In this document: positions 2,405-9,029 of the stretch, piece after piece
Layout of the letters: each line of letters opens with the position of its first letter
Numbering within the stretch: the first letter of the stretch is position 1
DNA from: Bacteroidales bacterium
GTDB lineage: Bacteria; Bacteroidota; Bacteroidia; Bacteroidales; UBA12077
Length of the DNA stretch: 39,026 nt
NCBI GenBank assembly: GCA_022360575.1
Contig: JAKSCO010000306.1
Location: 1 to 39,026, forward strand
Reading direction: 5' to 3'
Notes under the pieces: model-generated
Seen by the model: only the letters and a program-made list of their open reading frames with translations
What the model was told of the DNA's origin: nothing
Databases searched by the model: none
Translations under genes and position numbers: made by a program

Positions 2405-2710
2405 ATGAAAATGCTTGAACAAGCAAATAGATTAAAACGTATAGATGATCTTATACGAAGACAATCTACTGGTGCACCGCAAGAGTTTGCTCGAAAATTA
2501 GAAGTGTCGGTAAGTACACTATATGAGCTTTTAGATTTACTCAAACAGTTAGGAGCCGAAATAAAATATAATAAGCATAGGCTTACTTATATTTACTTAA
2601 CCCCTGTAAAATCTATATTTAAACTCGAAAAAGAAGATATTGATAAAATTAAAGGAGGAAAAAATATCTCACTCCAGAAAAATCAGAATCTGTTTTTATA
2701 CCATTGTTAA
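2405..2710 (+). CDS. Small HTH DNA-binding protein with leader-like double-glycine C-terminus
   Basis: This protein has 101 residues. Residues 1-62 are a winged-helix-like HTH of the small Bacteroidota type: an initial helix LEQANRLKRIDDLIRRQ, then STGAPQEFARKLEVSVSTLYELLDLLKQLG, then a strand pair (IKYNKHRLTYIY). It is probably a local transcription regulator. After a short linker, residues 73-85 read KLEKEDIDKIKGG, closely matching the leader of the peptide encoded 66 bp downstream (KLESNDLKKVLGG). Sixteen residues ending in Cys follow the GG. This resembles a precursor peptide fused to a regulator. The HTH assignment is confident, and the meaning of the GG motif is inference. Confidence 0.8.
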   Translation: MKMLEQANRLKRIDDLIRRQSTGAPQEFARKLEVSVSTLYELLDLLKQLGAEIKYNKHRLTYIYLTPVKSIFKLEKEDIDKIKGGKNISLQKNQNLFLYHC

Positions 2711-2776
2711 TTATTAGAAAAAGCTAACCTTAGAAGTTAGGTTGGTATTACATTAACAAATTAAAATTAACTATTT

Positions 2777-2968
2777 ATGAAAAATTTTAAAATGACAAAA
2801 TTAGAGTCTAATGATTTAAAAAAAGTTCTTGGTGGAACTTCATGTCCTACGTATGATATACAATCTAATTCAGATGCGTTAGTTTATTCAACTAAATCAG
2901 CAGCACCATATGCAGCTGGGTTGATTAAAACATTTGCAACTGAAATAATGAAATTTATTTTCTTATAG
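2777..2968 (+). CDS. Double-glycine leader peptide (candidate bacteriocin or signalling peptide precursor)
   Basis: This is a 63-residue precursor. Residues 1-20 form a classic GG leader with hydrophobic residues at regular spacing (L9, L14, V17-L18) and G19-G20. Cleavage would release 43 residues starting TSCPTYDIQ, with a single Cys (C23), a Ser/Ala-rich middle and a hydrophobic C-terminal third (AAGLIKTFATEIMKFIFL). Such leaders are cut by C39-peptidase ABC exporters, none of which is encoded in this window. It lies between the HTH gene and a CPBP protease gene and is followed by a strong terminator. I do not recognise the mature peptide, so bacteriocin versus signal cannot be decided. Confidence 0.75.
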   Translation: MKNFKMTKLESNDLKKVLGGTSCPTYDIQSNSDALVYSTKSAAPYAAGLIKTFATEIMKFIFL

Positions 2969-2979
2969 GATTTAGAATA

Positions 2980-3023
2980 AGCTGTGTTAGCCGATAAAAT
3001 CGTTAATACAGCTTTATTCTTTA
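2980..3023 (+). terminator. Terminator after the GG-peptide gene
   Basis: AGCTGTGTTA (2980-2989) pairs with TAATACAGCT (3004-3013) with one G-U pair. An inner CGAT/ATCG dyad sits in the loop and a T-rich tail follows. It would separate the HTH/peptide transcript from the CPBP gene. Confidence 0.7.
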
Positions 3024-3034
3024 AATAATCGTAG

Positions 3035-3042
3035 TAATTTTG
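3035..3042 (+). promoter_or_regulatory. Candidate -7 element (TAATTTTG) at the CPBP gene
   Basis: TAATTTTG matches the Bacteroidota -7 consensus TAnnTTTG and lies only 4 bp before the GTG start at 3047, which would make the transcript essentially leaderless. No clear -33 TTG was found. Confidence 0.35.
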
Positions 3043-3046
3043 GCGT

Positions 3047-3706
3047 GTGAGAGAATTCATCGAATATATTAAATACCCAAGATATGTTAGAACTACTAAG
3101 CTTAGTACTGCATATTTTTTTCGTCTTTGGTTTTATTTATTATTAATAGCAATTCCTTTATCGATATGTATTAATATTTTAAAAACATTTATAAATACAC
3201 AAGAGATAGATTCAAACTCATCTACACTTGTAGAGTTTTTGAGCATAGTGATATTGGGTCCTTTAGTTGAAGAATTATTGTTTCGTTTGATTCTCAAACC
3301 TAGACATAAGAATTTATTGATATTATTATTGACACTAATATATTTAGCTGTCATAGCAATTATTAAGCATAACTTATTCTCATTATTGTTTGTTATTTTT
3401 GCAGTATTTATTCTGATTATCTTGAGTAAAAGAAATAATATAAGGCTTTTGCAACGATTCTTTATTAGTAAATTCTCTTACATATATTATATATCTGCAT
3501 TTTTTTTTGGTGTAGTTCATGTATTTAATTACAGTGATCGATCATTTATCTTTTTCATTACCTCTCCGATTATTATTATTCCGATGATGATATTAGGAGC
3601 TTTTTATGGGTTTGTAAGGATAAAATATGGAATTATATATTCTATTCTTCTTCATTCTTTTTACAATTTTATCCCAGCTATTATTATGTTATTAGATATT
3701 ATATAA
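3047..3706 (+). CDS. CPBP (CAAX/Abi) family intramembrane metalloprotease
   Basis: This is a 219-residue polytopic membrane protein with all the CPBP motifs: EELLFR (E75, E76, R80), FFFGVVH (H158) and HSFYN (H203, N207), the predicted metal and catalytic residues. In Gram-positive bacteriocin loci, CPBP proteins often act as immunity proteins, and in other settings they process prenylated proteins or peptides. Its position directly after a GG-leader peptide makes self-protection or peptide handling plausible. The start is GTG: a stop lies four codons upstream and no in-frame ATG occurs before the first membrane segment. The family is certain, the role is inferred. Confidence 0.85.
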   Translation: MREFIEYIKYPRYVRTTKLSTAYFFRLWFYLLLIAIPLSICINILKTFINTQEIDSNSSTLVEFLSIVILGPLVEELLFRLILKPRHKNLLILLLTLIYLAVIAIIKHNLFSLLFVIFAVFILIILSKRNNIRLLQRFFISKFSYIYYISAFFFGVVHVFNYSDRSFIFFITSPIIIIPMMILGAFYGFVRIKYGIIYSILLHSFYNFIPAIIMLLDII

Positions 3707-3773: not shown

Positions 3774-4658
3774 ATGCGATTAATATCAACACTTTTAATC
3801 CTGATAATTTTTAGAGTATTTTCTTTGGCTCAGGATTTTGCGATAGAAGGAATAGTAATAAACTCAGAAAATGGTACTCCTGTAAGTTATGCCTCGGTAT
3901 GTTTACAAAACGAAACAAAAGGTATTTCGACTAACGAAAAAGGAGCGTTTAGATTAATATTACAGACCAAAGATTTAAAAAAGCAAATCGTTATTTCGGC
4001 TATAGGCTATTACGATACAGTATTTTCAATATCAACATTAAATAAAAATGCAGTAAATTTAAAATTAAAACCAAGATCATATCAAATTCCTGAAGCGGTA
4101 GTGGTTGTTTCTCATAAAATAAAGACGATTATTATAGATAAATTACGAAAAAGTATTTTTAAACAAGTTATGATGGCAGGACCATCGAATCCTAAAATTG
4201 TAGCAAAAAATTTTAAATACATCGAAAAGTATGACGGCTTTTATTTAAATGAGATAAGTATTTTCTTTGATCGAGAGTTTGATTATTCGATTAAACCAAA
4301 GTTTATTTTAAGAGTATTTGCTAAGGATACAATAAATAATACTCCCGGAAAAGATTTAATAAGTAAAGCTTTGATTACTCTAGATAAAAGCAAACCTCAG
4401 ATGCATTATAAATATACTTATAAACTAGAGAATCCGATTAAGTTTCCTAAAACAGGACTATTTGTCGGAATCGAATGGATTGCCATTAAAGAGAATAAGT
4501 ATAACGAAAAAAGAAAGGCGTATTCTCCTTTCTTAGCAGGAAAATATCGCAAAAGGATGGATAATAATCTGTGGGAGTTTTATGGGGGAAGCTGGAAGTT
4601 AAAATCTCCTGTTAAAGACAATTCAGAACCATATATCGAATTGCGGTTAATAAAATAA
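3774..4658 (+). CDS. Secreted carboxypeptidase-regulatory-like domain protein
   Basis: This protein has 294 residues. A signal peptide (about residues 1-19, ending LAQ) precedes a CarboxypepD_reg-like beta-sandwich domain at about 22-105 (IEGIVINSENGTPVSYASVCLQ, ISTNEKGAFRL). The remaining 190 residues are not recognised but resemble the region that follows this domain in the DUF5686-type proteins (compare the gene at 34155-36506), without the beta-barrel. It is probably exported to the periplasm or cell surface. It is a single gene ending at a strong terminator, and its function is unknown. Confidence 0.7.
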   Translation: MRLISTLLILIIFRVFSLAQDFAIEGIVINSENGTPVSYASVCLQNETKGISTNEKGAFRLILQTKDLKKQIVISAIGYYDTVFSISTLNKNAVNLKLKPRSYQIPEAVVVVSHKIKTIIIDKLRKSIFKQVMMAGPSNPKIVAKNFKYIEKYDGFYLNEISIFFDREFDYSIKPKFILRVFAKDTINNTPGKDLISKALITLDKSKPQMHYKYTYKLENPIKFPKTGLFVGIEWIAIKENKYNEKRKAYSPFLAGKYRKRMDNNLWEFYGGSWKLKSPVKDNSEPYIELRLIK

Positions 4659-7286: not shown

Positions 7287-9029
7287 TTAGCGATATACTG
7301 CTAAATAATGTTTTCGTTTTTCTCTAAAAATAAGGTAGGCATTTATTTTATCTTCGAAAATCCCTAATCTGTATTCGGTTGATTTTCGTCTATTCCATTT
7401 ATCTAATTTTTGTTTGCTTAACAACTTTCCATCTTTATAGCTGTAAGTACACAAAAAAGTATTTTTTTTATTTTCTTCGTACAATACATAAATACATTGC
7501 TTGTCGGCTTTTATATCGGTAATTTTATTAACAAAAACATTATCGGTTAATTCATTTATATATTTTATCGTTCCGGCTTTTTCTCTAGGGTAAGTTTTAT
7601 CTATATCAAACACTTTAAAGCTTTTATTTTGCTCTGTTTTATCAGAAAAATGGACAATTCCAGAATATCCACTAGAATAAACAGTAACATCAGAAGTAGT
7701 ATAATATAAAGGATCGATAAACGAAAAGCCACTCTTATAATATTTAAAAATATCCTCGGGTTTGCCAAAAAAACGAACACTATCTTGTGTTTCTATATTA
7801 TACATTCTTAAATAATACGAATTGTCGTAAAACTCGTCTAACAATGTATTATAATCTACCGGATTTCCGTCCCATTCGTCAATTTTATAATTAAAGGCCG
7901 GAAACCCTTTTACTGATCTTAAAACTACATTTTTATCATTATCTACAAAAAAACGCGTATGATCTACTATTACCCCTCCAATATCTTTTATTGTCTTTTT
8001 TTCTAAAATTATCTGTTTAAACCCTATTTCTAAGTCATTCATTTTGCTGGTATTGTTATCAAAATCCCAAATAAAAAACGACATAGTATTTGCGTAGGCA
8101 ATATCTCCGGAAGGATCTCGAAACAAATCAGGTAATGAGTACGAAATACAAGCAGTATGTTCCCCATTAATAATGGCTTTATTGGGCATTATAAAAGCCT
8201 CGTTGTTGGCAAGCATTTTTTTAAATTGCTGCACAGAAACCACACTTGTATCTACATTTTTTAATAAATCGTTAAAACTTGGAGTAAAAAAATTATGAAA
8301 CTTAAAATCCTTGTTTGTTTTTTTAAAAGAATAAATTTTTTCGGATAGCTCGTCGTAAAAAACTAAATTATTATTTACCAAAGAAGCTGTAAGTGGGCTC
8401 GATATCTTATTTTCTTCGTCTTCGGCAAGAAAAATCTTAGTGTACTCATGTTTTTTTTCACTCGGGGTATCACTTTCTTGCTTTTTTATTAATTGGTAAG
8501 TTCCATAATCGAAAAAAGCCTGAGGTTTTACTTTATCAACAATTTTCTGATAAGTTTCTTTAGCTACCTTCTTCACTTCTCCACCAAAAATCATACGCCC
8601 ACTTAATAAATCGATTTTTAAAAGAAGTGTTACTCTTAGCGGAGTGGTTTTTAAACTAAATATTTCGTTATATAAATGTTGATTGTCAGTTATTAAATAA
8701 TCGTATTTAAAATTTTTATTTTTAACATAACTTTCTGTAGTTGCATTGTCGTTGTAGTTACACCACAAAGCTACAGCAGCAGTACTATCGAGTTGTTTTA
8801 TGTATCGGTAAGCATGATTAATATCCATCTCGCAGCGCGGACACATTTGGGGTGTAAACAAAGTAATATACACTGTTTTGTATTTTGAGTTTATCTGTTG
8901 TAAACTCTCTTTTAATAAAGATTCGGTATTTTCTTTTTGGCTTATCTGAAAAAGATCTGCTTGAGCAAAAGCTGAAAAGTTTAATAAAAAAATTATGCAA
9001 AATAGTTTAAACGTCAATTTTAGATTCAT
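7287..9029 (-). CDS. Secreted protein with thioredoxin-like CxxC domain and long beta-propeller-like C-terminus
   Basis: This protein has 580 residues. A signal peptide (about 1-22, ending AFAQA) is followed by a thioredoxin-like region at about 35-165 with the redox motif C63-P-R-C66 (TLFTPQMCPRCEMD) and a family-like T-T-P-L-R segment near 130. From about 190 to the end the sequence is rich in beta strands and aromatic residues, with repeated IxxY/VYxxY patterns as in Bacteroidota six-bladed propeller proteins; this second call is tentative. It probably acts in the periplasm on thiols or metals. A small ORF upstream overlaps its start by 23 nt, suggesting coupled translation. Part of its 3' end is copied at 7074-7098. 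Confidence 0.6.
   Translation of the reverse strand: MNLKLTFKLFCIIFLLNFSAFAQADLFQISQKENTESLLKESLQQINSKYKTVYITLFTPQMCPRCEMDINHAYRYIKQLDSTAAVALWCNYNDNATTESYVKNKNFKYDYLITDNQHLYNEIFSLKTTPLRVTLLLKIDLLSGRMIFGGEVKKVAKETYQKIVDKVKPQAFFDYGTYQLIKKQESDTPSEKKHEYTKIFLAEDEENKISSPLTASLVNNNLVFYDELSEKIYSFKKTNKDFKFHNFFTPSFNDLLKNVDTSVVSVQQFKKMLANNEAFIMPNKAIINGEHTACISYSLPDLFRDPSGDIAYANTMSFFIWDFDNNTSKMNDLEIGFKQIILEKKTIKDIGGVIVDHTRFFVDNDKNVVLRSVKGFPAFNYKIDEWDGNPVDYNTLLDEFYDNSYYLRMYNIETQDSVRFFGKPEDIFKYYKSGFSFIDPLYYTTSDVTVYSSGYSGIVHFSDKTEQNKSFKVFDIDKTYPREKAGTIKYINELTDNVFVNKITDIKADKQCIYVLYEENKKNTFLCTYSYKDGKLLSKQKLDKWNRRKSTEYRLGIFEDKINAYLIFREKRKHYLAVYR

Follow-up and report, generated by a model that had tools for sequence, protein, structure and literature searches.

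What would hold together a small HTH protein, a peptide with a double-glycine (GG) leader and an intramembrane protease that lie in a row in a Bacteroidales genome? The control and timing of the many GG peptides of Bacteroidota are little understood, and a survey of Bacteroidales RiPP clusters mentions HTH genes or two-component systems only now and then (PMC10352776). The window analyzed here, a stretch of 39,026 nucleotides, is contig C75 of a draft genome of 3.6 Mb in 362 contigs. The 3 open reading frames described in the initial annotation were confirmed on the + strand: an HTH protein of 101 amino acids (2405..2710), a GG-leader peptide of 63 amino acids (2777..2968), and a CPBP (Rce1-like, glutamic-type) intramembrane protease of 219 amino acids (3047..3706). 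Between the peptide and CPBP genes, on the same strand, lies a hairpin (2974..3020) whose stem is about 20 pairs long and which is probably a terminator or attenuator. The region 2966-3040 has an MFE of −21.6 kcal/mol (z −4.77), with 0 of 200 shuffled sequences as stable, and a hairpin of this strength argues against one uniform transcript. The remaining window genes that were tested are ordinary chromosomal genes, and an Rfam scan of the window gave no match.

The second gene does encode a peptide with a clear GG leader (MKNFKMTKLESNDLKKVLGG, 2777..2836, + strand). This leader ends in GG, is hydrophobic at positions −12 (Leu), −7 (Leu), and −4 (Val) and acidic at −8 (Asp), and outscores all 1,867 control GG sites on the leader profile described below. 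The predicted mature peptide (TSCPTYDIQSNSDALVYSTKSAAPYAAGLIKTFATEIMKFIFL, 2837..2965, + strand) consists of 43 residues with one Cys and a hydrophobic C-terminus and, as had been proposed, could be assigned to no family in Pfam or NCBIfam at E ≤ 0.01; the curated model TIGR01847 did not match the peptide, and no match at E < 0.07 was found among 24 relatives of its family. Its single Cys separates it from the bacteroidetocins, which carry at least 2 in the mature peptide according to the passages of that report cited here (PMC6671954). The exact HTH/peptide/CPBP order did not hold up as a conserved unit: the nearest related locus (L025), with an HTH protein about 53-58% identical to that of the window, has another GG peptide and no CPBP gene before the contig ends. 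The initial annotation had looked to conservation of the peptide beside its neighbors, and of its GG motif, as a check on the cassette. On this point the outcome is divided, as the mature peptide is not conserved, but the peptides that replace it retain the GG motif, as is usual for variable cargo.

The small HTH protein is likewise real, with a confident AlphaFold2 winged helix spanning residues 2-64. The model contains 3 helices (2-18, 25-31, and 36-48) followed by a wing of 2 strands (53-56 and 61-64), as expected of this fold. Database matches are faint: HTH_11 was hit at E 2.8e-4, under Pfam's own cut-off, the HTH profile run against PDB sequences retrieved uninformative hits (antibody chains and one Aca7), and the best Foldseek matches were winged helices of the NiaR/BirA/CggR type, none at E ≤ 0.001. 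The sole PADLOC match, a WYL-like HTH at 1.9e-4, was judged to reflect the generic HTH fold. Residues 81-101 have pLDDT < 50, and this C-terminal tail is predicted to be disordered and accessible.

The initial annotation overlooked that this tail itself carries a GG leader. It reads FKLEKEDIDKIKGG-KNISLQKNQNLFLYHC, beside MTKLESNDLKKVLGG for the leader of the neighboring peptide, and the two have in common Leu at −12, Asp at −8, Ile/Leu at −7, and Ile/Val at −4. The leader in the tail (LEKEDIDKIKGG, residues 74-85; 2624..2659, + strand) has L at −12, D at −8, I at −7, I at −4, and GG at −2/−1, and so conforms to the PCAT leader consensus of L(−12), E/D(−8), a hydrophobic residue at −4, and GG. 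Only 0.16% of the 1,867 control GG sites exceed its score, and TIGR01847 did not match the tail. The 16 residues that follow (KNISLQKNQNLFLYHC, 2660..2707, + strand) would be the product of C39 cleavage; SNFRPILLDGTLISLL is an example of such a post-GG 16-mer. A separate small GG open reading frame concealed in the HTH frame was rejected for the window because there is no in-frame start codon shortly before the leader. An operator was sought among repeats of the window and of L025, as well as in upstream alignments of 5 groups, and no convincing shared site emerged.

An HTH profile search covered 393 genomes sampled from the order and 395 from the phylum, to which larger neighborhoods, 79 named loci, and one further genus of the phylum (labeled "Flavobacterium-type" for its size and diversity) were added; removal of near-copies at 85% identity left 160 HTH proteins. 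A GG tail is present in 73 of these 160 Bacteroidota proteins (<85% identical), a fraction biased upward because the search profile contained the tail, while the GG position and the associations below are less affected by this. In L120, L128, and possibly L040, all counted among the 73, the GG is there by chance. Tailed proteins have a median length of about 107 residues, against about 85 for untailed ones, and in 29 of 33 order-level cases the GG falls at residues 82-91. Among HTH homologs in the same family as the window, L025, L026, L027, L028, L029, and L032 have the tail, and L030 and L039 are without it.

Two lines of evidence led us to reject chance as the source of GG in these tails. 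Shuffling predicts 8.9 GG-containing tails among the 55 that are at least 20 amino acids long, where 35 were found. In addition, a position-specific leader profile was derived from the downstream peptides (86 distinct leaders), with the HTH tails left out, and was compared with the 1,867 control GG sites, taken from long proteins of the same loci. On this scale, 88% of HTH tails lie above the 95th percentile of the controls and 74% above the 99th (Mann-Whitney p 6e-38), and TIGR01847 bacteriocin_sig matches 2 HTH tails unaided. The tail consensus is L/I/V/M/F at −12 (94%), E/D at −8 (74%), and a hydrophobic residue or Thr at −4 (97%). For PCATs, the passages of the substrate study cited here give a consensus of Leu(−12)-X3-Glu(−8)-Leu(−7) with a hydrophobic residue at −4, and a minimum substrate consisting of the last 13 leader residues (PMC6363468). 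The HTH tails fit this recognition pattern.

What follows the GG in relatives is a segment with a mean of 19 residues, rich in L and F, and conserved within some genera. Several variants depart from the standard tail. Ala-Gly stands in place of GG in L180, L183, L185, L206, and L322. In L171 (5878-6273), a TAA stop comes straight after the GG, with the conserved tail readable behind it, and the protein thus ends precisely in the form that cleavage would leave; in L173 (6001-6246), a TAG stop lies ahead of the leader. In 5 Aquimarina loci (L255, L257, L261, L264, and L266, at about 7300-7711), a second HTH gene sits directly upstream of the GG-tailed one, and its product has the same kind of tail with Ser-Ser replacing Gly-Gly.

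The genomic surroundings of tailed and untailed genes differ. Among HTH genes flanked on either side by 4.5 kb or more of sequence, 24/36 tailed ones have a PCAT no farther than 4.5 kb away, as do 12/49 untailed ones (p 1.4e-4); often only 5-160 bp separate it from the tailed gene, and the usual gene order is HlyD-PCAT-HTH-peptides or HTH-peptides-HlyD-PCAT. A GG peptide lies no more than 1.2 kb downstream of 47 of 70 tailed HTH genes, as compared with 11 of 87 untailed ones and 36 of 558 background genes. In tree-controlled tests, both of them underpowered, the tail-PCAT association had 3.9 pairs for and 0.8 against (median p 0.38) and the tail-GG-peptide association 5.2 pairs for versus 1.7 against (p 0.29). 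A reverse search that started from the PCAT, with no HTH reference, recovered a tailed HTH within about 4.5 kb in 4 of 6 clade members (at least 58% identical), their tails having GG or AG at the cleavage position; at more distant PCAT loci, a tailed HTH within 1.5 kb was found in 0 of 24. The DITDCGAAC active-site type predominates among PCATs next to tailed HTH genes, and DAMDCGPTC among those next to untailed genes. The conserved element is the GG-tailed HTH together with GG peptides and a PCAT.

The earlier observation that no exporter is encoded near the cassette was correct, and C39-ABC exporters (PCATs) are found elsewhere in the window genome, on contigs C116 (followed by HlyD) and C173; the C116 PCAT is of the DAMDCGPTC type, as at the tailed locus L169. 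A C39-VKOR-thioredoxin protein is encoded on C183. Another contig of the same genome (G000 C103; L031:11828-12200) has a second HTH homolog that is cut by the contig end inside its tail. In its relative L032, a GG tail is followed by 2 GG peptides, CPBP, HlyD, and PCAT, a gene order from which a second such locus of the window genome may be split across contigs.

The CPBP protease was also borne out (PF02517 at 4.4e-10, 40.2 bits against a cut-off of 22.4). Its EExxxR and His motifs are intact, and its GTG start agrees with the N-termini of relatives. CPBP/Abi immunity proteins occur in class II bacteriocin loci, and the window resembles these in that a CPBP membrane protease gene adjoins a GG peptide gene; it differs in the intergenic hairpin and in that the nearest NCBIfam CPBP family, NF052640, scores 58.5 bits and does not reach its cut-off of 220. 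The protein is a candidate for a role in immunity or processing. By a local CPBP profile, a same-strand CPBP gene lies within 3 kb of 13 of 70 tailed HTH loci versus 0 of 78 untailed. A genome of the same genus (G021) has a GG peptide directly followed by a CPBP relative at 2 more loci, L189 and L193, with PF02517 confirmed for the former and not the latter, and the mature peptide part differs at each such pair. Most likely, the CPBP protein would protect the producer or trim the peptide or leader.

Selection on the tailed proteins was estimated from dN/dS in 2 sets. In the Flavobacterium-type loci, 9 distinct sequences gave 0.12 in the HTH domain, 0.26 in the linker and leader together, and 0.47 beyond the GG; in 5 Aquimarina loci the values were 0.06, 0.04, and 0.12, respectively. 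Both the HTH domain and the tail are therefore under purifying selection, weaker on leader and tail in the Flavobacterium-type loci, so that the HTH domain is no mere leader, and drift of the leader and tail is constrained. Over the whole tree, supported branches carry no fewer than 15 changes of the tail label, indicating that the tail was gained or lost repeatedly.

We give roughly even chances to a reading in which these loci are GG-peptide (bacteriocin-like) export cassettes where the tail of a winged-helix regulator bears a PCAT recognition/cleavage signal and couples export to transcription. The exporter would then bind or cleave the regulator as a substrate, and the tail would dock on the PCAT's C39 domain in the manner of a cargo peptide. 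The tail of most members would next be cut after GG, with 7-39 residues leaving through the exporter and the DNA-binding part staying behind. An idle exporter would cut the regulator, and an exporter that is absent or occupied by cargo would leave it uncut; transcription of the peptide genes would in this way be tied to the presence or availability of the exporter, which in the window genome would act in trans. Precursors tagged with maltose-binding protein are cut, as stated in the cited passages of PMC6363468, so a folded domain ahead of the leader need not block cleavage. Because of the AG, SS, and stop variants, normal cleavage cannot be universal, and docking is favored in those members. 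A bolder version, in which the C-terminus of a transcription factor is cut and secreted by an adjacent exporter that serves as both sensor and protease, the tail being released as an extracellular peptide, we regard as possible but rather improbable.

Other readings divide over what the tail does. The HTH protein could be processed into a short pheromone for export, its DNA-binding domain taking the place of a simple leader, for which one might point to the post-GG sequence RPxLLDGTxISLL conserved in Flavobacterium-type loci and the related ILDG in L181 and Belliella L206, to LTAxFLQ endings common to L075/L076 and L170/L175, to post-GG dN/dS below 1, and to the precedent of domain-derived GG leaders in the cited portions of PMC2887384. 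We nonetheless think it unlikely, since selection is stronger on the HTH than on the tail, a full winged-helix fold is an improbable mere leader, and the post-GG tails of other clades are poorly conserved (identity 0.17 in one). Alternatively, the GG leader might tether the regulator to an idle exporter without cleavage, with cargo displacing it, making the regulator an occupancy sensor. The recognition residues do lie upstream of the GG, and PCATs also adjoin members whose tails have AG or SS or are truncated; most members, however, keep the GG that docking alone could dispense with, and as a general account we find this doubtful.

The remaining readings give the tail no role. Repeated read-through of an HTH gene into a decayed GG-peptide gene could have left a functionless relic, in keeping with the 15 or more changes of the tail label on supported branches and the wide variation of the post-GG parts. 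A relic would not be expected to show position-specific GG, a leader consensus, and within-genus leader and tail dN/dS below 1, and we consider it very improbable. The initial annotation pointed to a bacteriocin unit, which in its ordinary form would comprise a regulator, a GG toxin, and a CPBP protein for immunity; the tail would then be incidental. Recurrence of CPBP beside GG peptides speaks for this account, as do the neighboring peptides of related loci, 21 of 61 of which match TIGR03949 (class IIb bacteriocin-like), but it leaves the GG tail and its phylum-wide recurrence unexplained, and the window peptide matches no bacteriocin family at E ≤ 0.01; we hold the chances of this account to be small.

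The nearest precedent is the set of Nif11- and nitrile-hydratase-derived leaders, which share a domain before the GG, a variable segment after it, and a link to PCATs (PMC2887384). The present domain differs from these in being a strongly selected DNA-binding winged helix, the post-GG segment is short, and nothing seen marks most of the present loci as encoding modified-peptide precursors. GG peptides of Bacteroidales, from RiPP clusters (PMC10352776) to bacteroidetocins (PMC6671954), are alike in the C39-ABC export of GG precursors, often with HlyD, and in their small variable mature parts, but the cited sections of these 2 reports describe no GG motif inside a regulator, which is a feature of the present loci. 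Nor did the literature searched, most of it open-access, yield any account of a DNA-binding protein that bears a GG leader. The phylum-wide occurrence of GG-tailed HTH proteins by exporters thus suggests an undescribed link of gene control to peptide export, possibly a categorically new regulatory mechanism. If so, export capacity would set transcription in a simple, directly testable circuit, and short secreted peptides hitherto unnoticed would be added to those of the phylum. GG-tailed HTH genes also offer a handle for locating PCAT loci and their peptides phylum-wide. Untailed Bacteroidota HTH proteins (HTH_11-like, about 75-95 amino acids) have the same HTH domain without the GG tail and are significantly rarer beside a PCAT or GG peptide; some occur at lanthipeptide or graspetide-like loci. 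In L039 (7566-10195), an untailed HTH gene adjoins a gene for a 57-aa peptide and 2 genes whose products, judged by eye, resemble graspetide-type ATP-grasp enzymes.

Some further genes of the window and its genome deserve mention. Downstream of the cassette, 3774-4658 encodes a CarboxypepD_reg protein of 294 amino acids. Two homologs lie in tandem upstream of the C173 PCAT, and a third lies amid housekeeping genes on C54, on account of which a specific tie of this protein to the C173 PCAT was judged weak. On the − strand, 7287-9029 encodes a 580-aa protein with a signal-peptide-like start, a CPRC motif near its N-terminus, and no Pfam match at 1e-5. Elsewhere in the genome (G000), contig C235 (L286) has 2 tandem GG peptides of 48-49 amino acids with short acidic cores, and contig C263 (L287) has 2 Cys-rich GG peptides followed by a gene encoding 439 amino acids.
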